DNA from: Dethiosulfovibrio faecalis
Lineage (GTDB): Bacteria > Synergistota > Synergistia > Synergistales > Dethiosulfovibrionaceae
Reading direction: 5' to 3'
NCBI RefSeq assembly: GCF_021568795.1
Contig: NZ_JAKGUE010000001.1
Span: 1 to 64,000, forward strand
Length of the DNA: 64,000 bases
This document shows, in pieces, positions 2,840 to 40,968 of the stretch. The translations under genes were made by a program, and so were the position numbers. A model generated the notes under the pieces. The model was not told the DNA's origin, made no database searches, and was given only the letters and a program-made list of their open reading frames with translations. Each line of letters begins with the position of its first letter. Position 1 is the stretch's first letter.

Positions 2840-4360
2840 CTAATCCGCTGCGACAGCTTCCTCTTCTGTTTCTGCGCCTCCTTCCTCTAGCTCTTCAATC
2901 TCATCGTCGTTCAGGTCGATGAAGTCCTCCAGGGTCAGCTCCCGATTCAGCCAATCCTCTTTTGCTTGTGGATCTTCCTTTATCAGGCGGTCGATGGCCT
3001 GGCTTTCCTGATACTCTTTGGCCTCTGCCGCTATAGTCCACTTCGTCTCTACGCCTATCTCGTCAACTTGCCTGCGGATCTCCTGAAGAGAGGCTCTAAA
3101 GAACTCCTTGCGCCGGTTGACCTTATTGACCTGGGCCAGCGCGAAATGACGGTGTAGGGCATTCTCGAGTGAGGGAGCATCCTCGCTCCAGATCATGGCG
3201 TGTACATCGAACTCGAAGGGTACGCTTGCGTCGCCTAACTCCTTGATGCGGTCGAGGGGCTCCAAACGTCGAGTCATACCGATCTTGTAAACGTCCTCTC
3301 CGAAGGATCCGATATTGGAAATAACATAGACATGGCCGCGTTTAGTCTGCTGTGCCATGGAGATTGCCCTTTGGTTTCTCTCCTCCGCCTCCTTTACCTT
3401 TTGTTCCATCTCGGCAAGGCGATCTTCGTACATGGCCTTCTGTTCCTCGCTGGCATCCTCGTATTCCTTGCGAACCTTCGCCATAGCTTCCTGAAGGATT
3501 TTCTCTTCTTTTTTGGCTTCCTTGATTGCCTTTTCTATCTCCCTTTGCGCTCGTGCCTCTTCACGCATCTGGGTTTTTATCTGGCGTTGTTCCTCTTTTT
3601 CCTGGGCGCGTAACTCCATGACTACGACCATGAGACGTAACTCCTCCAGGCGCAGCGCCAAGTAGTTTTCATCGATATGGGAACTGGAAAATTTTGAGCC
3701 GTTGTAGTTCAGCAGGTTATAGACATCTATGATCTCCTGGTGGAGCTTGCCATAGTTGTCCTGCTTGACTCTGGTGAGGATGGATTCCACCTTGCCGTTG
3801 AACGCCTCCGTTATCAAATTGATAGCGGCGTCTTTTTTATCCTGGTCTTTCAAAGTGGATTTGGCCGAGCGACGGTCTTTTACGGCCCTACGGATAGCCT
3901 TACGGATGTCTTTCAGTCCTTCGGCGGTCTTCTTGTACCCGTATTCTTCCGCCAGCTCGTCTACGAGGGAACTTCGGGGAATAATGTATCTGTCCCCATA
4001 GCCTTCGATATGGTTCTTGATGGCTGTGAGGGTGTTTTTATAAGATTTTATCTCGCGCTGAACCTCCAGGCTTTTTTCTTTAAGCCTGGAAAGTTCTTCG
4101 TTGACATCGCGAATTGGACGGTACTTAATAAGAGTCTGATTCTCTTCGTAAAGTTTGACGTTTTCAGACAGGACTTTCTTTCGCTCTTCCTGACCTTCCT
4201 TGTATTCCTTGATGTGTTGAGCTTGGATGATTTTCAATGTTTCAATGGTCTTATTGGCCTTCTCAAGTTTTTGGTTGGCCTCCTTGAAACTTGATTGGAA
4301 GGTGATAGTTCCTAAAAAGAAGATAAGCAGTAACACGATATAAAAGATAGTCACCGGCAA
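2840..4360 (-). CDS. DUF4041 / T5orf172 GIY-YIG-like protein, membrane-anchored
   Basis: 506 aa from a TTG at 4360 (a GTG two codons on is possible). An N-terminal hydrophobic helix (about 4-22) is followed by coiled coil (25-110), a DUF4041-like helical region (about 115-250), a second long charged coiled coil (250-335), and a T5orf172 domain. That domain shows GHVYVIS at 342-348, VYKIGMTRR at 357-365, HRHF near 403 and KEFF near 418. T5orf172 is a GIY-YIG-superfamily fold found in phage and restriction-related proteins. The tail is very acidic (EEGGAETEEEA). The gene is inserted between an immA remnant and intact immA. Base composition is close to the prophage average, unlike its AT-rich neighbour. 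The molecular role is unknown; membrane tethering of a nuclease-like domain suggests phage exclusion, which is inference. Confidence 0.7.
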   Translation of the reverse strand: MPVTIFYIVLLLIFFLGTITFQSSFKEANQKLEKANKTIETLKIIQAQHIKEYKEGQEERKKVLSENVKLYEENQTLIKYRPIRDVNEELSRLKEKSLEVQREIKSYKNTLTAIKNHIEGYGDRYIIPRSSLVDELAEEYGYKKTAEGLKDIRKAIRRAVKDRRSAKSTLKDQDKKDAAINLITEAFNGKVESILTRVKQDNYGKLHQEIIDVYNLLNYNGSKFSSSHIDENYLALRLEELRLMVVVMELRAQEKEEQRQIKTQMREEARAQREIEKAIKEAKKEEKILQEAMAKVRKEYEDASEEQKAMYEDRLAEMEQKVKEAEERNQRAISMAQQTKRGHVYVISNIGSFGEDVYKIGMTRRLEPLDRIKELGDASVPFEFDVHAMIWSEDAPSLENALHRHFALAQVNKVNRRKEFFRASLQEIRRQVDEIGVETKWTIAAEAKEYQESQAIDRLIKEDPQAKEDWLNRELTLEDFIDLNDDEIEELEEGGAETEEEAVAAD

Positions 4361-4929: not shown

Positions 4930-5565
4930 TCAGTACTCATCCGTATGGTCCTCCAGCGTGATCTTGCCCAGTGCCGCTTTGAAGAGCGTTGCCAGGAACT
5001 CCCGGTCTTCCGGGGCCAGCCTGGTGACGTTCTTGGCCACGTGGCGGAACTTCAGGACTATGTCCGGATCCTCCGCCGCCAGCATCTTCATCAGAGTTTC
5101 GAGGTCTTCCTCGCTCTGTCCCTTCTTTTTCTCCGTCTCCTGCTGTGTTTCTCCGTCCCGGGCCGAAAGGTACCTTCCGTAGGCTTTGATGAGCTTCTGC
5201 TTGAGGACGCTATCCGCCCGATCCTCATATTTTTCCATCAGCTCGAGGTCCTCCGCCGGGAGATCTATCAATGCGGCGGCCTCGTCAAGTGAGAGCCCGG
5301 TTTCCTGCCTCATAGGGGCCAGTATGCCGCTGGGAACCTGCCTATCGGCTTTCTGTGGCGATGGATCGTTGGTTTCACCCATGAAGTAACCCGTCGGAAC
5401 TCCGAGAGCTCTTGCTATAAAAGAGGCTTGGATTATGTCGGGTACAGTTAAGCCTTTCTCCCACCTTTGCACGGTAGACCTAGATGCATTGCATTTTTCT
5501 GCAAGCTCTTCTTGGGACATACCGCATTTTTGGCGCATACCTTTGATTCGTTCATTAACCTTCAC
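4930..5565 (-). CDS. CI/ImmR-like prophage repressor
   Basis: 211 aa from the GTG at 5565, placed behind GGGTGG. The longer upstream frame has no ribosome site and would cover the promoter. Residues 1-60 form an XRE helix-turn-helix (MRQKCGMSQEELAEKCNASR). A linker follows, then a C-terminal helical region with EEDLETLMKMLAAEDPDIVLKF. No Ser/Lys autoprotease domain is visible, consistent with cleavage by the ImmA encoded next to it rather than RecA-stimulated self-cleavage. It is transcribed leftward, divergent from the Cro-like gene, and its promoter contains a repressor half-site in the spacer, suggesting autoregulation. Confidence 0.85.
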   Translation of the reverse strand: MKVNERIKGMRQKCGMSQEELAEKCNASRSTVQRWEKGLTVPDIIQASFIARALGVPTGYFMGETNDPSPQKADRQVPSGILAPMRQETGLSLDEAAALIDLPAEDLELMEKYEDRADSVLKQKLIKAYGRYLSARDGETQQETEKKKGQSEEDLETLMKMLAAEDPDIVLKFRHVAKNVTRLAPEDREFLATLFKAALGKITLEDHTDEY

Positions 5566-5590
5566 GATATATCCACCCTTTCCCCATTGC

Positions 5591-5619
5591 ATTGTCGCAA
5601 ATATGATGCAACGACTCAA
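5591..5619 (-). promoter_or_regulatory. Promoter of the repressor gene (PRM-like)
   Basis: On the minus strand TTGAGT (5614-5619) and GACAAT (5591-5596) are separated by 17 bp. The spacer contains GCATCATAT, the same half-site as in the operator at 5683-5698, so repressor bound here would contact or block the promoter. Confidence 0.6.
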
Positions 5620-5698: not shown

Positions 5699-5730
5699 GG
5701 TAAGGTGTTTGTAGATCGGAGGTGATGCTT

Positions 5731-6183
5731 TTGCTGGGGGTGGAAATAAAAAACAGGAGGCTTTCTCAGGGATATTCGCAAAAGAATTTGGCTAAAAATC
5801 TAGGCATTAGTCGAGCAACGCTTCAAAGGTGGGAATCTGGAACAACGGAACCGACAGCTTCTCAGGTTCTCTCGATGGCGGAGTTTTTAGAGGTTTCTTG
5901 CGATGAAATTTTGGGTTTTAGGACCTATCCAAGACATCGAAAATCATTGCAAGAGATCGATATTCAATCAATCCAGGGTCTCTTTTGTAACCTTGTCCGA
6001 ACCATCGGAGAGCTGTGCGAGCGATGCGATTCTCCTGAGGAGGTTATGGATCTCCTGCTGGACGTAGGCGAGGACGGTCGAATCAACCACCCGAAGAACG
6101 AGGCGTTTATAGATCTCCTGGAAGCCCTGGTCCCCCTGGCCGGGGAGGTGTTGAAGGCGGTGAAAAGCGATGAGTTGGCTTAA
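5731..6183 (+). CDS. Cro-like XRE-family regulator
   Basis: About 150 aa. The ribosome site GGAGGTGAT at 5718-5726 is a near-perfect anti-16S match, which makes TTG 5731 the best-spaced start; GTG 5722 and ATG 5725 lie inside that site. The first 60 residues form a helix-turn-helix (RLSQGYSQKNLAKNLGISR) closely similar to the divergent repressor's (RSTVQRWE there, RATLQRWE here). The C-terminal part is helical and unrecognised. It heads the rightward early operon. Confidence 0.72.
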   Translation: MLGVEIKNRRLSQGYSQKNLAKNLGISRATLQRWESGTTEPTASQVLSMAEFLEVSCDEILGFRTYPRHRKSLQEIDIQSIQGLFCNLVRTIGELCERCDSPEEVMDLLLDVGEDGRINHPKNEAFIDLLEALVPLAGEVLKAVKSDELA

Positions 6184-11962: not shown

Positions 11963-12235
11963 TTATCTTTTGAGGATGTCCGAGTGGGTACCGGTTCTGA
12001 TCAGTGAAATGGCTTGTTGATCGACTTTGTATATCAGGATCCAATCGGGTTCTATGTGAAGCGAGCGATGGCTGCCCCAGTTTCCTAGCATGGGGTGATC
12101 ATTGTATTGTTCGGGAAGTTCCTTACCTGAGACTAGGATTTGGAGTGCCTTCTTCAGCTTGTCCGTGTCTTTGCCCCGTTTTACCTGTAGTTTTACGTCC
12201 CGTTTGAACTGACTTGATCGTTTCAGCTTCGGCAT
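11963..12235 (-). CDS. YafQ/RelE-family mRNA-cleaving toxin
   Basis: 90 aa with the RelE/ParE-superfamily pattern: a basic N-terminus (KLKRSSQFKRDVKL), HPMLGNW, HRSLHIEPDWILIYKV and a C-terminal RTGTHSDIL carrying the histidine characteristic of YafQ. It starts in a TGATG overlap with the upstream antitoxin, the standard coupling of antitoxin and toxin. It probably cleaves mRNA on the ribosome when released. It lies on the strand opposite the phage operon, a common arrangement for maintenance modules. Confidence 0.85.
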   Translation of the reverse strand: MPKLKRSSQFKRDVKLQVKRGKDTDKLKKALQILVSGKELPEQYNDHPMLGNWGSHRSLHIEPDWILIYKVDQQAISLIRTGTHSDILKR

Positions 12236-12495
12236 CAGATACCGAGATCTTCATACAGGTCGTCGAGAGACTGAAACTCTTCTCCTTCTCCGGAAGCGAC
12301 CTCGGCCATAGCCTGCCTGGTCTTGGCGTTGGGGATCTCTACCGGAAATGGAAGTCGTCCGCTCGTTCCGATCTGTACCAGCGTCATCCTGACGGCGTCG
12401 GATATGGATAGCCCCATCTGAGAGAGGACTTCCGATGCTTTCTGTTTGGTTTCGCTGTCTATGCGAACTCTGATAGAACTATCACAGGCGGTCAT
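12235..12495 (-). CDS. RelB/DinJ-type antitoxin
   Basis: 86 aa from ATG 12495 (a longer frame reaches 12528, but the ribosome site GGAGG favours 12495). The N-terminal ribbon-helix-helix (SSIRVRIDSETKQKASEVLSQMG, then SISDAVRMTL) is the DinJ DNA-binding fold. The acidic C-terminus (GEGEEFQSLDDLYEDLG) is the toxin-binding part. It probably represses its own promoter together with the toxin. Confidence 0.85.
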   Translation of the reverse strand: MTACDSSIRVRIDSETKQKASEVLSQMGLSISDAVRMTLVQIGTSGRLPFPVEIPNAKTRQAMAEVASGEGEEFQSLDDLYEDLGI

Positions 12496-12661
12496 ATTTA
12501 TCGCCTCCTTGTAGCCACATTGTATCAACGTCTTGGAGGATGATCAATTAAGTCTTTCTTCGGATCTGGCGATTATGCCGAGGGCCCGAAGTCTCGTATG
12601 CCATCTCTTTCTTGGAGGTGGCCTTTTTTTATGTCTTGCGAAAGACAGGAGGGGGTTGGAC

Positions 12662-14642: not shown

Positions 14643-16519
14643 TCGTGCCTTGGACATCCGCGGAACTTGCGGCCTGCAAGCCTCCGGAAAGAATGACCGT
14701 GAGCGAGTGGGCGGACCGTTATCGGATCCTGACTCCCAGGCTTGCCGCCAAGCCCGGACCGTGGAGGACTTCCTACATGCCCTATCTCAAGGGGATCATG
14801 GATGCCTGGAACGAGCCGGGAGTGGAGGAGATCGTTCTGTGCAAGGGAGCTCAGGCGGGGGCGTCGGAGGCGGCGAACAACTGTCTGGGTTACACGGCCT
14901 GTCAGGATCCCGGGGCGGCTCTGGTGGTGTATCCCACCGAGGATATCGCGGAATGGGCCAGCGAAAACCGGCTTCAGGACATGATAAAAACCAGCAACGT
15001 ATTCAATGGGATCTTTCGGGAGAGGGAGTCGGATCGTCTGGAGCTTCAGTTTCGGGGAATGTATATAGCTCTCACCGGAGCGAACAGCCCCGCCGCTCTC
15101 TCCGCCATGCCTATGAGATACATAATCTTCGACGAGATCGACAAGTATCCGAGGTATTCGGGCCGGGAGGCTAATCCGCTGAAGCTGGGGAAGGAGAGGA
15201 CCAAGACTTTTCCCAACCGAAAGCTGATGTACATATCCACTCCGACCCTGGAGACCGGGAACATCTGGCGGCTTTTGCAGAGGTGCGACGTCGTCTATCG
15301 GTACGAGGTTCCCTGTCCTCGTTGCGGAGAGCTCCTCTCCTTCTCCTTCAAGGATGTGTCGTGGCCCGAGGATCTCACGGAAGCCCTCAGGAAGGAGGAC
15401 GATCCCACCGCCAGACAGAAGATAATTCGCCAGGTGGAGGATCGGGCGTGGTATCGCTGCCCTCACTGTGAAGGAAGGATAGAGGATCGGGACAAGTCTT
15501 TTATGCTTGGCGAAGGCAGATGGGTTTCGGAAGGAGCCGAGCCGGGGAAGATCCGTCGGATAGGTTTCCACTGGAACTCGATATATTCTCCTCAGATTTC
15601 GTTCGGTGCCGTGGCTTCGGAGTTCCTTCGGTCGAAAGACAGTCCGGAGGATCTTATGAACTTCATAAACTCCTGGCTGGCCGAGCCCTTCAGGGAGTCG
15701 GTGGCCAAGGCGGAGCCGGAGAAGGTTCTGGAGGCTTCCGGAAATTATTCCCGAGGAGAGGTGCCGGACGAGGCGGTGGCCATTACCGCCGGAGTGGACG
15801 TTCAGAAGTCGGAGGCCTATTACGTGGTGCGTGCCTGGGGTCCCGGGCTTACGTCCTGGCTTATCGAGTATGGCCGGTTCGACACCTGGAACGAAACGGA
15901 CCTTCAGGACGGTCTGAGGGCCCATATAGTGGAGCCGGTCTATCGTTTCGGCGACGGTCGTCTGTGTCAGATCGGCTACTGCCTTGTCGACTGCGGCTAC
16001 AGGACCGACGAGGTTTACGACGCCTGCGTGGTGTACGGCGATGTTCTGGGTCCGGTCAAGGGGGCCTCTCGCAGGATGGACGGTTATTACCGCCGTCACG
16101 TGGTGGACCGCAAGGGCCGGAAAGACGGCCTCACCATGCTGGAGGCGAATACGTCTCTGCTGAAGGATTTCATTTTCGGACGTATGACGAAGGAGCCCGG
16201 GACTAGAGGGTCGTGGTCGCTTTTCAGGGACTGCCCGAGAGGATACGCCGAGCAGATAGCGTCGGAGCACAAGGTGATGGTGACGGATGCCAGGACAGGT
16301 TCCAGTCATCACGAGTGGAAGAAGATCTCCGGACACGCCGCCAACCACCTTCTGGACTGCGAGGTTTATGCGACTCTGGCGGCCAGAATGCTCAACCTGC
16401 ACTACATGCCGACGGAGGAGGAGCGGGAGGCCATGAGGCCGTCGTCTTCTTCCGTGGATTCCGCCGAAGGTGCGGGATGGCTGAAGGGCGGCGGTTCGGG
16501 ATGGTGGAAAGGGAGGTGA
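14639..16519 (+). CDS. Terminase large subunit (lambda gpA family)
   Basis: 626 aa from a TTG overlapping terS. The ATPase domain shows a Walker A-like CKGAQAGASE near residue 62 and Walker B IIFDEIDKY near 160. CPRCGE and CPHCEG (near 222 and 273) form the zinc element seen in GpA-family terminases. The C-terminal nuclease half contains VDVQKSEAYYVV and VDCGYRTDEVYDACV. Length is close to lambda gpA. It cuts and translocates DNA into proheads. Confidence 0.93.
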   Translation: MIVPWTSAELAACKPPERMTVSEWADRYRILTPRLAAKPGPWRTSYMPYLKGIMDAWNEPGVEEIVLCKGAQAGASEAANNCLGYTACQDPGAALVVYPTEDIAEWASENRLQDMIKTSNVFNGIFRERESDRLELQFRGMYIALTGANSPAALSAMPMRYIIFDEIDKYPRYSGREANPLKLGKERTKTFPNRKLMYISTPTLETGNIWRLLQRCDVVYRYEVPCPRCGELLSFSFKDVSWPEDLTEALRKEDDPTARQKIIRQVEDRAWYRCPHCEGRIEDRDKSFMLGEGRWVSEGAEPGKIRRIGFHWNSIYSPQISFGAVASEFLRSKDSPEDLMNFINSWLAEPFRESVAKAEPEKVLEASGNYSRGEVPDEAVAITAGVDVQKSEAYYVVRAWGPGLTSWLIEYGRFDTWNETDLQDGLRAHIVEPVYRFGDGRLCQIGYCLVDCGYRTDEVYDACVVYGDVLGPVKGASRRMDGYYRRHVVDRKGRKDGLTMLEANTSLLKDFIFGRMTKEPGTRGSWSLFRDCPRGYAEQIASEHKVMVTDARTGSSHHEWKKISGHAANHLLDCEVYATLAARMLNLHYMPTEEEREAMRPSSSSVDSAEGAGWLKGGGSGWWKGR

Positions 16520-22095: not shown

Positions 22096-22866
22096 ATGGC
22101 GAACGTAAGGAATTCCAACGATATAGTTCTGGGATCCGGCCGCATGTTCCTCGACGGCGAGGATGTCGGTCAGCTGAAGGACGATCTGACCTTCGAGCAC
22201 GGAAAGGAGATGTACGAGCTGAAAGCCGGGTTCCCGGCGACGGTGGTCCTTTCTGCTCTGGTCAGTGAGGAGCTGACCCTGAGCTTCAATCTGCTGGAGA
22301 CGAACCTGGATATGGTCTGCCGTCTGATGCCGGAATACGATCCGGTAACAGAAAACGCCGGAACCGCCACCGTCGCCGACGAGCTTGTGACGCTGTTCGA
22401 TTCCGTCCATACCATGCTCGGCAAGGGCAGGGTGGAGGGGGACGCCACGGTAACCACCGTGGACGGCACGGCTTTGACCGAGGGAGTGGACTATTATCTG
22501 GACCGGTTGAACGGAACCATCTACAGAGTGCCCGACTCCGCCAAGATAGCCGACGGCGACGACGTCAAGGCGTGCTACACGTATAAAACCTACGAAAGCA
22601 AAGGGTTCGGCGTCGGCGGCGGAACCTCGACGGACAAGACTTTCCGGGTCGATTTCTATCACAAGCGCAGAGACGGAAAGTATCGTCACGTCCGGATATG
22701 GAAGGGCAAGGTGAAGGGTAACTTCTCCATGGCGTTCAAGGAGGCTTCCGAGTCGCCTCTGGCCGTGGAGGTTACGGCCATAGCGGACAGCACGAAACCG
22801 GCGGGGCGTCAGCTTATGACGGTTATGGATGTGCCGGCGGAGGCGGTTCCCGGAGGGGGCTGGTGA
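22096..22866 (+). CDS. Major tail tube protein
   Basis: 256 aa. The N-terminal part (DIVLGSGRMFLDGEDVGQLKDD) and LTLSFNLLETNLDMV resemble siphovirus tube proteins. The middle part (GVDYYLDRLNGTIYRV) looks like an inserted beta domain. It lies between the tail terminator and the tail chaperone. It is produced in many copies, so translation signals are expected to be strong. Confidence 0.7.
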   Translation: MANVRNSNDIVLGSGRMFLDGEDVGQLKDDLTFEHGKEMYELKAGFPATVVLSALVSEELTLSFNLLETNLDMVCRLMPEYDPVTENAGTATVADELVTLFDSVHTMLGKGRVEGDATVTTVDGTALTEGVDYYLDRLNGTIYRVPDSAKIADGDDVKACYTYKTYESKGFGVGGGTSTDKTFRVDFYHKRRDGKYRHVRIWKGKVKGNFSMAFKEASESPLAVEVTAIADSTKPAGRQLMTVMDVPAEAVPGGGW

Positions 22867-23423
22867 TGCGCCATTTCCCCGAGCCTGCCCGGTTGGTCGT
22901 TACCATAGGCGGGCGGCCTCATAAACTGCGGTATCTGACGAGGGCGGACGTTTCCGCCCTCGTCGTGTCCATAAGGGAGCTGTGCGACGGCGAGATTCCC
23001 GAAGACGGCAGAGAGGCCATGGATGCCTTGCTTGCAGAACGGAGGGTTCTGGACCCTATATTGATGGATGCCTTCCCTACGGCGGATTCCATTCCGGCGG
23101 AGGATGCCGATGTGAAGTCCGGTCTATTGGCCATAGTCTGGGAGGTCAACAAGGTGCCGGATATATTGGAGGATCTCAAGACCCACGGCGAGGACGGAGC
23201 GGACGACTCGGAGGGGGATCCTCTGGCATGGCCGAAGTTCTGCCTTCATATGAGGCGTAACTTCGGAATAGACGAGGAGACCATGTTCCATCGCTGGACC
23301 TACTGGCAGTTCGTGGGCTTTATCGAGGCCGCACAGGAAATCCTGGACCCCGACGAAGAGCGGGGCAAGGGAAAGCGACGGACGATAGAGGACCTGGTAA
23401 AGGATGGGGTTGCGGGGATGTAG
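22866..23423 (+). CDS. Tail assembly chaperone
   Basis: 185 aa from ATG 22866, overlapping the tube stop (TGATG, one base). It is acidic and helical, with a C-terminal FIEAAQEILDPDEERGKG. It precedes the tape-measure region as lambda G does. No canonical XXXYYYZ slippery heptamer leading into an extended frame was found at its end; the accessory island starts right after it. A second chaperone product therefore seems absent or has been displaced. Confidence 0.6.
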   Translation: MRHFPEPARLVVTIGGRPHKLRYLTRADVSALVVSIRELCDGEIPEDGREAMDALLAERRVLDPILMDAFPTADSIPAEDADVKSGLLAIVWEVNKVPDILEDLKTHGEDGADDSEGDPLAWPKFCLHMRRNFGIDEETMFHRWTYWQFVGFIEAAQEILDPDEERGKGKRRTIEDLVKDGVAGM

Positions 23424-23433
23424 GGGTGGAATG

Positions 23434-23462
23434 TTGTCGATGCTACGACACTATCGTATAAT
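23434..23462 (+). promoter_or_regulatory. Sigma70-type promoter of the late-region moron
   Basis: TTGTCG (23434-23439), a 17-bp spacer and a perfect TATAAT (23457-23462), beginning 10 bp after the tail chaperone stop. A housekeeping promoter inside the late operon would let the following genes be expressed in the lysogen. Confidence 0.75.
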
Positions 23463-23670: not shown

Positions 23671-24123
23671 ATGTCTCGCAAGCAGTTCAATTTCATCTAC
23701 GATAAGCTTGTAAAGGACGAGAACGATATTCTCGGCCATATCGCTTACTCGATATATAAAAACCAAAAACGTGAGGAAATAGCGAAGATAAAGTCGAAAA
23801 ACGGAGGTGCCGACGTTACTGACGAGGACTTGGCTCCGTTTGTAGACCTATCTCAAAGCAACTCCCAGGTTGGGTTTTATAAGGATAGAGCAACGGCGCT
23901 TGCTCAACTATTTCTTGATGAGGTCGTAGGACAAGAGCTGGAAGAGGCGAAACGAAAACAAGAGGCGGATTTCATCCGTAACCACAAGGCACATGGTTTT
24001 ATATACGGTGTTTTGCAGGGGTTTGTCGCCTCGGTGTTGTTCGTGCTTGTCGGGCTCGTTTTCCTAATTTATACCGGTGGAGCGGCCGTGGTTGGCAGAG
24101 CTCTAATTGAAATAGCGAAATGA
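23671..24123 (+). CDS. Moron membrane protein (150 aa)
   Basis: Cytoplasmic, charged residues 1-108 (YDKLVKDENDILGHIAYSIYK and REEIAKIKSKNGG) precede one strong hydrophobic helix (about 112-138, FIYGVLQGFVASVLFVLVGLVF) and a short tail. Codon use is more AT-rich than the flanking tail genes. It is flanked by its own promoter and an intrinsic terminator, the definition of a moron. A single-span inner-membrane protein expressed from a prophage could act in superinfection exclusion (inference). Confidence 0.6.
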   Translation: MSRKQFNFIYDKLVKDENDILGHIAYSIYKNQKREEIAKIKSKNGGADVTDEDLAPFVDLSQSNSQVGFYKDRATALAQLFLDEVVGQELEEAKRKQEADFIRNHKAHGFIYGVLQGFVASVLFVLVGLVFLIYTGGAAVVGRALIEIAK

Positions 24124-24442: not shown

Positions 24443-24472
24443 TTGAAAGTGTGGCATTGCTAAACGTATAAA
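24443..24472 (+). promoter_or_regulatory. Promoter of the ribbon-helix-helix gene
   Basis: TTGAAA (24443-24448), an 18-bp spacer and TATAAA (24467-24472), 30 bp upstream of the TTG start at 24504. Confidence 0.65.
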
Positions 24473-24503
24473 CATGTGATACTCTCTTTGTGGAGGTGAT
24501 AAT

Positions 24504-24653
24504 TTGGGAAAGCGAAAATCATTTACCACGACGATTGACTCCGATATCCAGAAGCAATTCAAGTTGGCGTGCGTCGAGCGGGATGAAAAAATGAACGATG
24601 TTTTGGAACGATTCATGGTTTACTACATTGAGGAGAAGAAAAAACCCGAATAA
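24504..24653 (+). CDS. Ribbon-helix-helix repressor (Arc/Mnt-like, 49 aa)
   Basis: TTG start behind GGAGGTGAT. The sequence KRKSFTTTIDSDIQKQFKLACVER is the ribbon and first helix of an RHH fold, and MNDVLERFMVYYIEEKKK the second. At 49 residues it has the size of P22 Arc. It is followed after 120 bp by a BRO-type antirepressor, reproducing the Arc/Mnt-Ant order of P22 immI, which also lies among late genes. It probably represses its own or the antirepressor promoter. Confidence 0.7.
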   Translation: MGKRKSFTTTIDSDIQKQFKLACVERDEKMNDVLERFMVYYIEEKKKPE

Positions 24654-24735
24654 CCGATCATCTTGGCGGAGACGGTTACTCGGGCCCAACAGCAAGGGGC
24701 AAAGCCCTCACATGGGTTAATTGTACCATGTAGAT

Positions 24736-24772
24736 GGCTCCCTGTCCCTATGGACGTAAGGGGGCTTTTTTT
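24736..24772 (+). terminator. Attenuator-like terminator over the antirepressor ribosome site
   Basis: GGCTCCCT (24736-24743) pairs with AGGGGGCT (24759-24766). An inner GTCC/GGAC stem has a CTAT loop, a 3-nt bulge lies between the stems, and a run of seven T (24766-24772) abuts the ATG at 24773. The 3' arm AAGGGGG is the only Shine-Dalgarno candidate for that ATG, so the hairpin would both stop transcription and hide the ribosome site. Confidence 0.75.
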
Positions 24773-25903
24773 ATGCTCGAAATTAAGGAAAAAGCAGGAA
24801 GTAAGAATGTTCAAGGCCGGGAATTGATAAAAAGGGCTGTAGATGACGTTTTTTCGTATAGATCGTCGGGGTTGCGTGATCTGCCTGAAAACGTCGATAA
24901 GAGAACTTTTTATGGCTGGGTCGTGTATGTGGCATGGCTTTACGTAAATCGGATGGAGGTACAGGGGCGTTCCGTCGATCTATCGGAAACCGTCGCCGTG
25001 ATGGAAAGAAACGACGAGAAAGGCGAGATAAGGTCCGTTTTCGATTTTTTTCGTGCCGCAGAGAGCCGAAGGGAGGCAGAAGAGATGATAGACGTGTTGG
25101 AGGTTAATCCCGTAGCTGGTGATTCTGATTTGAGGTTATTCGAGTTCGAGCGGAAGCCCGTAAGGATTGTCTTTATAGACGGTAATCCTTGGTGGGTGGC
25201 TAAGGATGTGTGTGAGGTTTTGGAGATTTCGCGAGTAGATAGCGCTCTGAGGGCTTTGGACGCAGACGAAAAGGGTACTCAAATTTTGAGCACCCCCGGA
25301 GGAGACCAGGCAATGTCTGTTATTTCCGAATCCGGTCTCTACACGCTGATCATGCGGTCGAACAAGCCAGAGGCCAAACGATTCAAACGCTGGGTTACCC
25401 ACGAGCTTCTGCCGACCATACGAAAAACCGGGAGCTACGCTCTTCCCGGCGTCGATCCATCCAAGAACGGCAGAAAGGAAGAGCTTGCGGAGAAACGTCT
25501 CGCCATCATGGAGCGAAACGCCAACTGTCGAATGGCCAAGATGATCCTGAAGGGCATGGACGCCTTCAGGGACGTCATGACCAAAGAGTCCAAGACCGTC
25601 TTTATGGCCAAGTACGGCGAGCTGGTTACAGACGCCGATCTGACCCGTCTGCTTCCCAGATCCGCCGAGCCGATGTACTCGGCCACCGATATAGGGAAGG
25701 AGTGTGGAGTATCCGCCCAGGTGGTGGGGAAGGTGTCCAAGTCCCATCATCTGAAGAGCCCGGCGGGGGAGGACGGAGAATACGGCTACTGGATAAGAAG
25801 CAAGTCCCGCTATTCCAGCAAGGAGGTCAACACCTTCGTGTACAACGAAAGAGGCAGGGAGTGGTTTATGGATCACTTCGGTATAACTGCCATGGTGGAG
25901 TAG
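24773..25903 (+). CDS. BRO-N domain antirepressor (Ant-like)
   Basis: 376 aa from ATG 24773; an in-frame ATG at 24734 lies before the terminator and has no ribosome site. Residues 1-115 are unrecognised and helical. Residues about 120-220 form a BRO-N domain (VFIDGNPWWVAKDVCEVLEI, VISESGLYTLIMRSNKPEAK, RFKRWVTHELLPTIRKTG). Residues about 300-376 are a DNA-binding-like C-terminal domain (MYSATDIGKECGVSAQVVG). Proteins of this type inactivate phage repressors by direct binding. It is preceded by an attenuator-like hairpin and followed by a terminator. Confidence 0.85.
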   Translation: MLEIKEKAGSKNVQGRELIKRAVDDVFSYRSSGLRDLPENVDKRTFYGWVVYVAWLYVNRMEVQGRSVDLSETVAVMERNDEKGEIRSVFDFFRAAESRREAEEMIDVLEVNPVAGDSDLRLFEFERKPVRIVFIDGNPWWVAKDVCEVLEISRVDSALRALDADEKGTQILSTPGGDQAMSVISESGLYTLIMRSNKPEAKRFKRWVTHELLPTIRKTGSYALPGVDPSKNGRKEELAEKRLAIMERNANCRMAKMILKGMDAFRDVMTKESKTVFMAKYGELVTDADLTRLLPRSAEPMYSATDIGKECGVSAQVVGKVSKSHHLKSPAGEDGEYGYWIRSKSRYSSKEVNTFVYNERGREWFMDHFGITAMVE

Positions 25904-25923
25904 AGGTTGACCAATCCTGATTA

Positions 25924-25952
25924 AAGTCGTCCCTCAGGGGCGGCTTTTTTTT
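25924..25952 (+). terminator. Terminator after the antirepressor
   Basis: AAGTCGTCCC and GGGGCGGCTT pair with some G-T pairs around TCA, followed by eight T. It closes the accessory island just before the tape-measure ribosome site. Late tail transcription must read through it, which suggests antitermination. Confidence 0.8.
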
Positions 25953-25974: not shown

Positions 25975-28602
25975 TTGTCCAAGCGGGACGTACAGATAAA
26001 CGTAGGGGCTCGTGTAGATCAGGCCGTGAGCGCCTTCGACAGATTGCAGAAAACCCTCTATCTGAACGGTCACCGCCTGGAGACCTACGGCCAGTCGGTA
26101 GGGAAGGTCTTCGATCCGGCTATGAAGGGGCTGGTGGCGGCAGGCCTTGCGGCCAAAGCCGCCGCCGCGGGAACCGGATTGGCCGCTTTCTCGGTGGCTC
26201 AGGACCTCGAGGAGGCCATGGCGGTCGTCGTCCAGAAAACCGGAGAAGGCGAAGAGGCCCTGAAAGAATACGAGGACATCGTCAGAAGGCTTTTCAGGGA
26301 AAACCCGGTGTCCGGATACGGAGAGGTGGCCCAGGCTCTGGCGGCTGTTCGGGTGGCGACCGGGGCCGCCGGTGAGGCTCTGGAGAAACTGACCCAGCAG
26401 TATCTGTCCCTGTCGGACGTCACCGGAGTGGATCTCAACAACGCGGTTCGTCTGGGTTCCAGGCTCTTCGGAGACTGGTCCATCTCGACGGATAAACAGA
26501 CCGAGGCGCTGGATGCGCTGTTCGTTGCGTCCAGATCGACGGGGGCTTCCATAGAAAACCTGGCGGAGAAGGCCGTTACCTATGGAACCAAGTTCAGGCA
26601 GCTGGGTTTCTCCCTGGAGGAGGCTCTCGGGTTGTTGGGCAAGTGGGAAAAGGAAGGGGTCAGCACCGAAAAGGCCCTCTCCGGTCTTGGCCAGGCGATA
26701 ACCAACATGACCCGAAGCGGTGTCCGGAATCTGGTTCAGGGATGGAAGGACCTTACGAATAGCATAAAGAACGCCACCACCGAAGGAGATGCCATAAACA
26801 AGGCCGTGAAATACTTCGGCGCCGATGCAGGTCCGGACATGGCGGCGGCTATCAGGGAGAACCGCTTCGAGCTTGGAGCGTTGGTGGATGTCTTGTCGAA
26901 GGCCGAGGGAGCGATCGAAACGGCCGACGAGGAAACATCTACGTTGATAGAGTCTCTTCAATCACTTAGGAATACCGCGAAAGACAAGCTCCTTGAGCCG
27001 TTGGGAGACGAGGTGTCTCGATATGTCGCCCACGTTGCCGAACTGCTGGAGGTTCTCGTCGAATGGGCGGACGAGAACCAGGTGCTTAAGGGTTCGGTTG
27101 ATGCCTTCTTCGAAGGATTGGGGTTAGGCAATATACAAGTGGAAGAGTTCAAAGAGGCGTTGCAGAAGGTCGATGTCGCCTCCTTCACCGATCAGTGCGA
27201 GACCTTCGGCAGAATGCTGAAGGCTATCTATCGATCGTTTAAGACCATAGCCGACATGATCCCCTGGGAGCTCCTGATAGAACACGCCGACAGCCTGACC
27301 AAGATCATAATATACGGGTGGGCCTCCGGTAAGGTTTTGTCCATAGCCGGAGGAGTTCTAAGCCTTGCGGGATCTTTTGGCGATTTGGCCGACATGATGG
27401 AGAAGTTCAACAAGGTGGCGGCTTTTATCGAGGGTACTTTCATCGCTAAGTGGCTTATAAAAAGCGGGGCGGCATTATCGGAGACGATCGATAAGTTGGG
27501 AGACAGTGGACGACTGTCCCGCTGGGCCAAGGACTTTCGCAACGAGATGCGGGCGTTGATCAAGTACAAGGGAGCTTTGTTCTACGAGCTTAAACTCGCT
27601 CTTGGCGGTGCCGGGGCGAATATAGGCCTGGATATGGGGCTTGAGGATCTGGAAAGGTTCGAAGAGGCCTTGAAGGGAGATAAAGAGGCCCTCGAAAGTC
27701 TGCCTGAACCGATTCAGGAATGGATAGAGAAGAACAAAAAGACGAGTGTATCGCTGAAGGAAACCTCCAAGGCCGTCGAGGATTTGGACGATAAGATCAA
27801 AAACGTATCGGATGATATGAAAAAGCTTGAAGAGGAGCCGTTGTCTCTTACGAGTCTATTCGATGATGAAGAGCTTTTTGATAACCCCGACGATCTCCTA
27901 GCCAGGTGGGTTAGCGATAAGCCGATCAGAAAGATAGATTTAGCCATCTCGGACCTTAAGAAGCGTGTAGTGGAGATAAAAGCCGGCGGCAAAGAGGCGA
28001 TGGAAACATTGGGAGTCTCCGCCGAAGAGGCCGGTGCCGTGATGAGAGACTCCATATTGAAGGCGGTAGAGGAGATAAAGAAGTCTCTCGCCGACGAGGA
28101 TCCCTATATGGCCACCGCCTTCGTATCCGCCATGGAGAAGATGGGAACGGAGGGAGGAGACGCTCTTATGGCCTCCATAGCCGGGGCCATGGGCAAGGGG
28201 CAGGATTCCATCGTAAAGATTCTGACCGGGGCCATTCAGGACGGCTTTATAAAAGGTCCCGCTCTGACGGAGGCCATGAAGCTCATTCAGAAGAGGACGG
28301 ACGAGCTCGTCAAAAAAACCGGAGATCGGATAGAAAAAGAATATGCCGGTATGAAATTCAGCTCCGCCTTGATGGGAGATCTGAAAGCCTACCACGCCAA
28401 GCTGGAGCTTTCAAACCTGGGGGTTCAAAGCAGAATGCCGAATTTCTCCGGCAAGGGCGGATTCGGCGGAACGGTCAACAAGGTTTCCGCCCCTATATCG
28501 ATACAGATAGGCACGGTCAACGTAAAACGTCCGGAGGATGCGGACAAGACCGGTCGGGAGATCGGCCGGGGGATAGTCAAGTCCTTCGATCTGGGGTACT
28601 GA
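25975..28602 (+). CDS. Tail tape measure protein
   Basis: 875 aa from TTG 25975 behind GGAGGTGAT. The N-terminal half carries the TP901-type core (AQDLEEAMAVVVQKTGEGEE, SLSDVTGVDLNNAV, KLGGWSIST-like DWSISTDKQTEALDALF, FSLEEALGLLGKWEK). Hydrophobic stretches follow in the middle (about 430-480), then coiled-coil-rich C-terminal sequence. Length sets tail length, here implying a tail of roughly 130 nm by the usual 0.15 nm per residue. Confidence 0.9.
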   Translation: MSKRDVQINVGARVDQAVSAFDRLQKTLYLNGHRLETYGQSVGKVFDPAMKGLVAAGLAAKAAAAGTGLAAFSVAQDLEEAMAVVVQKTGEGEEALKEYEDIVRRLFRENPVSGYGEVAQALAAVRVATGAAGEALEKLTQQYLSLSDVTGVDLNNAVRLGSRLFGDWSISTDKQTEALDALFVASRSTGASIENLAEKAVTYGTKFRQLGFSLEEALGLLGKWEKEGVSTEKALSGLGQAITNMTRSGVRNLVQGWKDLTNSIKNATTEGDAINKAVKYFGADAGPDMAAAIRENRFELGALVDVLSKAEGAIETADEETSTLIESLQSLRNTAKDKLLEPLGDEVSRYVAHVAELLEVLVEWADENQVLKGSVDAFFEGLGLGNIQVEEFKEALQKVDVASFTDQCETFGRMLKAIYRSFKTIADMIPWELLIEHADSLTKIIIYGWASGKVLSIAGGVLSLAGSFGDLADMMEKFNKVAAFIEGTFIAKWLIKSGAALSETIDKLGDSGRLSRWAKDFRNEMRALIKYKGALFYELKLALGGAGANIGLDMGLEDLERFEEALKGDKEALESLPEPIQEWIEKNKKTSVSLKETSKAVEDLDDKIKNVSDDMKKLEEEPLSLTSLFDDEELFDNPDDLLARWVSDKPIRKIDLAISDLKKRVVEIKAGGKEAMETLGVSAEEAGAVMRDSILKAVEEIKKSLADEDPYMATAFVSAMEKMGTEGGDALMASIAGAMGKGQDSIVKILTGAIQDGFIKGPALTEAMKLIQKRTDELVKKTGDRIEKEYAGMKFSSALMGDLKAYHAKLELSNLGVQSRMPNFSGKGGFGGTVNKVSAPISIQIGTVNVKRPEDADKTGREIGRGIVKSFDLGY

Positions 28603-39515: not shown

Positions 39516-40649
39516 CTATGGTCTAATCTCTTCTCTTTGTTCGTCTAGCCAGTCTGCCCACCATTGCATAAGCTCACGTCGTTGAGGCAGATATTCGGCG
39601 TGGTTGTAGGCGGCTCGTACGGCGTTCTTGGGGACGTGTGCGAGCTGCCTTTCTATGACGTCCGGTGGCCAGCCATGCTCGTTGGCGATTGTCGAGAACA
39701 TCGAACGGAATCCGTGACCGGTCATCTCCTCTTGAGTGTATCCTAATCTGCGTAAAGCAGCTAAAACGGTGGCGTCGGACATCGGCTTGACCGTAGACCT
39801 TATCGATGGAAAAAGATACTGGGATTTGCCGGAGATCTCCTTGAGCTTATTGAGGACCTCTACTGTTTGACGTGATAAGGGGACCCAGTGAACTCGTTTC
39901 ATCTTCATCTTTTCAGCCGGTATTTTCCAGGTGGCGTCGTCGAATTCAATCCATTCTGCCTTCCTCAATTCGCCAGGTCGGGCAAATGTGTATGCCTGGA
40001 ATAAGAGTGCGTACTTGATCTGTCCAACCAATCCGGCATCGATATCTCTCATGAGTTGCCCAATCCGGGCGGGGTCGGTGATGGTGGCCATGTGGGTAGT
40101 CTTGACCGGTTGCAGGGCTCCCTTGAGGTCGGCGGCGACATCTCTGTCGCACCTTCCTGTTGCCACTCCGTATCTAAGGATCTGCCCACACATCTGGCGA
40201 GTTCGTCTGGCGGTTTCTATAGTTCCTCTGGCCTCTATTTTCCTGATAACTTGCAGCAACTCTGGAGCTGTAAGGGATCGGACGATTTTATCCCCTATAT
40301 GGGGAATTAGCAGGGTGTCTATTTTATAGACCAGAGTCTCTATATATCGAGGCGCTTTCGTCGGTCTCATACGGACCGCAAGCCATTCGTGGGCCAGTTT
40401 TGCGAAGGTTGTGTCTGTGGGGGATGTTGAAGACGATTTGATCTCATCTCTTATCTGACGAGCTTTCATGAGGGAGACCCCAGGATATTCTCCTAAGGTC
40501 TTTTTGCTCTCTTTTCCGTTCTTCCAGATCCTAAGTTTCCATACCTTTCTACCTGTAGGACGAATCTCCAGAGACAGGCCCCTTTCGTCCACCAGCCGGA
40601 TAACCTTATCGCCCGGTTTTGTTTTGCGTATTTCAACGTCAGTGATCAC
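39516..40649 (-). CDS. int: P4-type tyrosine integrase
   Basis: 377 aa. An N-terminal DUF4102-like arm-binding domain (LSLEIRPTGRKVWKLR, KKTLGEYPGVSLMKAR) is followed by a core-binding domain and a catalytic domain with FARPGELR (Arg), HGFRSMFST (H-x2-R), QLAHVPKN (His) and AAYNHAEY (Tyr). It is adjacent to attR in tRNA-Ser(CGA), its target. Candidate arm sites lie upstream at 40684-40733 and at 225-244. Confidence 0.95.
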   Translation of the reverse strand: MITDVEIRKTKPGDKVIRLVDERGLSLEIRPTGRKVWKLRIWKNGKESKKTLGEYPGVSLMKARQIRDEIKSSSTSPTDTTFAKLAHEWLAVRMRPTKAPRYIETLVYKIDTLLIPHIGDKIVRSLTAPELLQVIRKIEARGTIETARRTRQMCGQILRYGVATGRCDRDVAADLKGALQPVKTTHMATITDPARIGQLMRDIDAGLVGQIKYALLFQAYTFARPGELRKAEWIEFDDATWKIPAEKMKMKRVHWVPLSRQTVEVLNKLKEISGKSQYLFPSIRSTVKPMSDATVLAALRRLGYTQEEMTGHGFRSMFSTIANEHGWPPDVIERQLAHVPKNAVRAAYNHAEYLPQRRELMQWWADWLDEQREEIRP

Positions 40650-40874: not shown

Positions 40875-40891
40875 AAGTGGCGGAGGAGGTG
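40875..40891 (+). repeat. attR core (17-bp direct repeat)
   Basis: Identical to 143-159 and overlapping the last 14 nt of tRNA-Ser(CGA), including the CCA end. Integration thus leaves an intact tRNA. Confidence 0.9.
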
Positions 40892-40968
40892 GGATTTGAA
40901 CCCACGGAGGAGCAGAGCCCCTCACTTGATTTCGAGTCAAGCGCCTTCGACCGCTCGGCCACTCCTCC
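40878..40968 (-). tRNA. tRNA-Ser(CGA), prophage attachment site
   Basis: 91 nt on the minus strand, 5' GGAGGAGTGGCCGAG to 3' CTCCTCC-G-CCA with CCA encoded. The anticodon loop CTCGAAA gives anticodon CGA. The long variable arm is typical of serine tRNA. Confidence 0.95.

Follow-up and report, generated by a model that had tools for sequence, protein, structure and literature searches.

A putative ant moron, P22 immI-like in layout and apparently built largely from different parts, among the tail genes of a Dethiosulfovibrio prophage

The prophage in our window (the whole stretch of 64,000 nucleotides that was analysed) carries within its tail-gene block a cassette that appears to be P22 immI-like in layout and built largely from different parts. 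We read it as an "ant moron", a self-contained tail-gene cassette that would lock an antirepressor through a repressor and antisense attenuation, with the antirepressor (Ant) lifting lytic repression; we give this reading a probability of about one half. What appears to be new here is an exchangeable small repressor, a predicted antisense RNA and leader switch in the gap between the repressor gene and ant, and domain swaps that are uncoupled between the phage repressor (CI) and Ant. The features are:

4930-5619, minus strand: CI-like repressor, putative target of Ant (Pfam HTH_3, 1.7e-16)
22863-23423: putative tail chaperone, on the upstream side
23671-24123, plus strand: neighbouring moron, a 150-aa protein with a C-terminal hydrophobic, transmembrane-like segment (PHROG_22648, function unknown, 5.4e-10)
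24391-24218, minus strand: truncated HigA-type antitoxin relic (its DNA matches, at 89%, the 5' portion of a HigA-type gene that is intact in prophage G001A)
24443-24472, plus strand: predicted promoter TTGAAA-18-TATAAA (10 of 12 consensus matches)
24504-24653, plus strand: gene for a 49-aa ribbon-helix-helix (RHH) protein, an Arc-like repressor (PHROG_3180, 9.5e-11)
24640-24684, minus strand: stem-loop with T-run at the RHH 3' end, predicted terminator of the antisense RNA
24713-24637, minus strand: predicted antisense RNA of about 77 nt with two hairpins
24720-24748, minus strand: predicted antisense promoter GGGACA-17-TACAAT with preceding TGG (extended -10)
24690-24772, plus strand: constrained ant leader with three hairpins
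24695-24749, plus strand: candidate antiterminator, AGGGGCAAAGCC (24695-24706) with GGCTCCCTGTCCCT (24736-24749), from forced folds
24737-24772, plus strand: candidate attenuator, a terminator hairpin with T7 abutting the ant ATG, from sequence and folding
24773-25903, plus strand: ant, a Bro-N antirepressor of about 376 aa (Pfam Bro-N, 6.8e-25; PHROG_130, 2.6e-53)
25145-25357, plus strand: swapped cassette in the Bro-N domain, Ant residues ~125-195
25923-25947, plus strand: terminator 3' of ant
25975-28602: tape-measure gene, the next downstream of the cassette (PHROG_991, 2.3e-30)

The layout of RHH gene, ant and terminator between the putative tail chaperone and the tape measure is confirmed. 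The preliminary description had proposed a 49-aa RHH gene, a BRO-type antirepressor and a terminator after it; the family matches bear out both genes, and the terminator is found in the window sequence. Of the two flanks that it named, the tape measure is secured by its family match, whereas the chaperone, which matches no family, is assigned from position and size alone. The cassette thus lies inside the late (virion) operon, with the major tail protein and the putative chaperone on one side and the tape measure on the other. Both the neighbouring moron and the HigA relic lie between the putative chaperone and the RHH gene. The moron gene has a promoter-like site of its own (23434-23462) and a terminator too, and its product is a candidate superinfection-exclusion or conversion protein.

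The RHH ORF has a TTG start and a strong Shine-Dalgarno sequence. Its Pfam matches are all sub-threshold (ParG, 0.0083), and a sequence search against solved structures returned only weak matches, to ORF E73 and ParG. However short, it is a genuine gene, because comparison with two other prophages gives a dN/dS of ~0.10 (six synonymous and three non-synonymous changes); the protein is 92% identical among the prophages that carry both RHH and ant (the window, G003 and G006). The claim that this gene has its own promoter is borne out in part: TTGAAA-18-TATAAA is a plausible promoter, and its support is moderate, since the -35 is lost in G006 though the promoter is retained in G003. No clear conserved operator palindrome for the RHH protein was found across the three prophages compared. 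The mechanically called ant ORF starts at 24734, but the in-frame ATG there has no Shine-Dalgarno sequence, and a stop that relatives lack lies immediately 5' of it in the window; therefore, ATG 24773 is the most likely start. Ant is under purifying selection (dN/dS 0.16).

The 119-nt gap between the two genes, with its predicted antisense RNA and foldable leader, looks like an RNA control device. The stem-loop at the RHH 3' end ranks 10th among 637 hairpin-plus-T candidates on both strands of the window, and TGNTAYAAT, the motif of the minus-strand extended -10 (TGGTACAAT), occurs three times on the two strands together; these rarity figures are not formal P-values because these signs were sought with P22 as the template. 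The T-run of the hairpin is present on the minus strand only. Each of the four prophages with the leader retains the -10; the -35 (GGGACA) is poor. The two hairpins of the predicted RNA are joined by four bases, and their fold is stabler than that of shuffled sequences in the window (z = -4.08), G003 (-4.68) and G001A (-4.75), compared with -5.26 for P22 sar as a control. Across four sequences, 98.7% of cells are paired, as against 41-51% in slid controls, and four pairs have changed on both sides, as against none or one. Compared with the window and G001A, both G003 and G006 carry the 41-bp stem-loop (24645-24684) in the opposite orientation, and the stem is nonetheless kept. An Rfam search of the gap gave no family at gathering score; sub-threshold matches to CopA-like RNA and RybB were read as reflecting a two-hairpin shape rather than homology. 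We also rejected the idea that a sar-type RNA spans the ribosome site of ant, as a promoter search and inspection by eye gave no good promoter 3' of the ant ATG.

The ant leader shows constraint. Against G003 it has four mismatches (plus a small gap) in 83 nt, where about 21 are predicted from nearby synonymous sites (P ~5e-7); the comparison of the window with G001A alone, a closer and uninformative pair, showed none (P 0.36). Folding predicts that the leader can adopt two mutually exclusive forms, a terminator with a hidden ribosome site or an antiterminator. The attenuator hairpin is identical in four prophages, and its 3' arm contains the ant Shine-Dalgarno sequence, which is paired in the full leader fold. 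In each of the four leaders, the fold forced to contain the competing helix, AGGGRCAAAGCC with GGCTCCCTGTCCCT, comes within 0-2.1 kcal/mol of the optimum; if the 3' arm is kept from pairing altogether, the gap between folds is 3.1-5.8 kcal/mol. The on-form is stabler than 98.4-99.8% of shuffles (P 0.002-0.016) and the gap between folds smaller than in 90-98.6% (P 0.014-0.10), so that the switch in these four leaders, which are related sequences, goes modestly beyond shuffles. In some on-forms the Shine-Dalgarno sequence is still partly paired. The 5' strand of the antiterminator helix lies within the stretch that the predicted antisense RNA covers.

These elements suggest the following mechanism. 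The promoter would drive the RHH gene and then ant, and the RHH protein, by analogy with Arc and CopG, would bind near its own promoter and shut the unit. The minus-strand promoter in the gap would make the antisense RNA of about 77 nt, ending at the RHH 3' end; its structure is conserved and its transcription is predicted. In the off-form, a terminator before the ant ATG would hide the ribosome site, and in the on-form the antiterminator would replace it; by pairing with the 5' strand of the antiterminator, the antisense RNA would push the leader to the terminator form, as folding suggests for a pT181/pIP501-type device. Ant would be made when a new infection begins or the small repressor is lost, and would derepress the lytic genes, its likeliest point of attack being the constant C-terminal domain of CI; this is the weakest step. 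Put in its most specific form, the idea is of an antirepressor under antisense-driven transcription attenuation, in which a P22-style layout is joined to a switch of the plasmid copy-control style and the repressor is interchangeable, with the RNA device and ant as the fixed parts; we advance this form tentatively, at less than even odds.

Antisense attenuation of the pT181 type is the same kind of leader control as that of pIP501. The predicted arrangement resembles pIP501, in which CopR works jointly with RNAIII (PMC4981023), in having a small repressor, an antisense RNA (predicted here) and a leader terminator just before the regulated gene, with mutually exclusive folds. It also resembles copG-RNAII-repB of pMV158, where an RHH repressor is cotranscribed with the regulated gene and a short countertranscript (predicted here) lies between them (PMC4485353). 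On the other hand, pIP501 and pT181 control a plasmid replication gene rather than an antirepressor, and the mechanism here is a predicted one; in pMV158 the target is repB translation, and ant is unrelated to repB.

P22 immI is the model second immunity region, combining a repressor protein with an antisense RNA. The cassette had been described as being of this type, and the analogy of layout stands, whereas membership does not. As in P22, a promoter, an RHH gene, ant and a terminator form a moron within late genes, the layout known as the P22 "ant moron" (PMC2629481). The antisense RNA predicted here, also with two hairpins, would occupy the corresponding position and terminate where the RHH gene ends, and a membrane-protein moron adjoins (sieA in P22; here the gene at 23671-24123, whose position recalls sieA). 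However, the window RHH protein gives no match to PF03869 (Pfam Arc) at E-values up to 1, whereas P22 Arc and Mnt both belong to it (Arc at 5.4e-31). There is no divergent mnt; the minus strand upstream holds only the HigA relic. Window Ant has Bro-N only, whereas P22 Ant consists of P22_AR_N (4.6e-44) and P22_AR_C (7.2e-31). In P22 (NC_002371), sar runs on the minus strand (15021-15090) from the base before ant, which begins at 15091, to the arc stop codon, where its terminator lies, and it pairs with ant mRNA and blocks its translation (PMC13397905); the predicted RNA in the window, in a gap of 119 rather than 68 nt, does not extend to the ribosome site of ant, which is taken up instead by the candidate attenuator hairpin. 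The window prophage, with its tape measure, is also that of a long-tailed phage in a distant bacterial host.

We compared the window with four congeneric prophages (G001A, G001B, G003 and G006). G003 and G006 carry RHH and ant together, as the window does. In G001A, an unrelated 62-aa HTH-like gene, whose only match is to an excisionase family (PHROG_2655, 4.4e-5), replaces the RHH gene; it has its own promoter (TTGACG-17-TATCCT) and is followed by the same leader and ant, which makes the small repressor a replaceable part. In G001B, a deletion has eliminated the leader together with the RHH gene and has cut 58 residues from the start of Ant. By this comparison, the site between chaperone and tape measure is a moron hotspot, differently filled in the five prophages; its contents include a protein with a transmembrane-like segment and a HigA relic or whole HigBA, to which inspection by eye alone adds a CHAT-like and a PIN-like protein and an IS3-type transposase. 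Such variety agrees with the rapid turnover of the P22 "ant moron" (PMC2629481). G001A has its intact HigBA-like pair (L091 10538-11211; RelE, 1.5e-43) across ant from where the window has the relic. In G006, a 291-aa opposite-strand protein upstream of the RHH gene (L096 1344-2219) is CHAT-protease-like by eye and possible defence cargo.

The putative target of Ant is the CI-like repressor. The preliminary description had placed it together with ImmA, and both are indeed there: an ImmA-type protease (Peptidase_M78, 5.4e-22) adjoins the repressor on the minus strand. If Ant does act on this repressor, the prophage might have the two separate induction routes which that description proposed. 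Among the five prophages, CI identity is 29-82% in the HTH and 78-100% in the C-terminal domain, which reads as a clear example of domain exchange that switches immunity. CI relatives in L092, L099, L100 and L097 show the swapped HTH with a nearly constant C-terminal domain, and so, by eye, does the Cro-like gene at 5722-6183. Ant has exchanged a segment of its own: between the window and G001A, synonymous sites in the Bro-N cassette are saturated, with dS of ~0.1 in the outer flanks. The two exchanges are uncoupled. G003 and G006 have identical Ant cassettes (100%) and a CI HTH identity of 41%, whereas G001A and G003 share 82% of the CI HTH and 45% of the Ant cassette. Since the cassette is independent of the HTH, the constant C-terminal domain is the likelier face if Ant binds CI. 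Counting against our reading, G004 has the same CI C-terminal domain without such an ant. The early region of G001A (L092) holds a second antirepressor-like gene near the repressor, Rha/KilA-type by eye and 254 aa long.

The same independence from the CI HTH would be seen if Ant were a DNA-binding transcription factor rather than a CI-binding antirepressor, with the Bro-N cassette setting DNA specificity. The structure model of Ant (mean pLDDT 72; Bro-N part mostly >90) has a Bro-N part that resembles DNA-binding domains and, with low-confidence regions, a MerR-like C-terminus. Foldseek matched it, at weak E-values, to DdrC, Mbp1 and the MerR-like RacA and BldC, all of them DNA-binding domains. 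A sequence search against solved structures gave nothing convincing for Ant, and its first 117 residues match no family and are poorly modelled. By this model, Ant may act on DNA rather than on the repressor. However, with low-confidence regions and weak matches the fold is of limited weight as an argument, and the closest families are annotated as antirepressors (names, not tests); we regard a DNA-binding Ant as somewhat unlikely. It would concern the step of lytic derepression alone and can coexist with the RNA control.

That control is itself what a simpler explanation would do away with: an autoregulated RHH gene and an antirepressor, with the hairpins serving as the terminator of the RHH transcript and as a barrier to stray or read-through transcription, and no regulatory antisense RNA. 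Hairpins that hide a ribosome site from read-through are common, and a strong terminator does stand before ant. Yet the T-run of the first hairpin is on the minus strand only, its stem has compensatory changes, and the rare extended -10 lies at the right distance, and we consider this explanation unlikely. Clearly less probable is that the cassette is a decaying moron with no present role in induction, its RHH gene or ant being lost or altered in relatives. The G001B deletion and the truncated HigA relic point that way, and P22-like phages too carry decayed ant morons (PMC2629481); in the window, however, both proteins are under purifying selection and the leader is constrained. RHH proteins are also common antitoxins and true toxin-antitoxin genes occupy the same hotspot in a relative, but here the partner is a Bro-N antirepressor that belongs to no toxin family. 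We therefore ruled out a toxin-antitoxin pair on family grounds, as highly improbable.

If the reading as an ant moron with a repressor-plus-antisense lock is true, it would suggest that such locks on antirepressors have evolved or spread more widely, to other families, a distant host and an unrelated contig (L009), and would show phage induction control using the attenuation trick of plasmid copy control. The CI and Ant domain swaps also make recognition by Bro-N antirepressors, which is poorly known, directly testable. L009 (IMGVR_UViG_3300042256_000017) is an unrelated phage contig in which an RHH gene accompanies a Bro-N ant; it has a terminator on the minus strand (-24.2 kcal/mol, z -4.15), and the sole TGNTAYAAT of the 7-kb locus lies at the ant start on the minus strand. 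It differs from the window in its location among head rather than tail genes, in its RHH protein (~35-37% identical) and in that no leader terminator was seen. Among 105 Bro-N loci it is the only one with an RHH gene immediately 5' of ant; L106 and L114 have weak divergent RHH candidates. Minus-strand terminators are no commoner upstream of 100 Bro-N ant genes (5%) than in control regions (5.6%); therefore, the device belongs to the RHH-ant type and not to Bro-N ants at large. Two other loci with strong minus-strand terminators, L074 and L068, have by eye no RHH gene in front.

A close-relative scan of viral contigs found no RHH relatives, whereas a profile scan found two, on the contig of L009 and in L155. 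Annotated phages gave weak RHH matches, and in the two that were inspected (A403 and phiOE33PA) the gene does not adjoin ant. L155 is a replicon, and the stretch that was fetched has no ant gene. Its RHH gene (2924-3175) is 56% identical to that of the window, in a replicon with an integrase and a replication-like gene, and a stem whose T-run is on the minus strand comes after it, as judged by eye; the L155 gene suggests a link to CopG-type control. Elsewhere in the window, a YafQ toxin (8.1e-30) and RelB antitoxin (1.6e-18) are encoded in the early region (11963-12528, minus strand) and are unmatched in relatives, and the phage integrase gene (39516-40649, minus strand) adjoins a tRNA-Ser gene (40878-40968), the likely attachment site.
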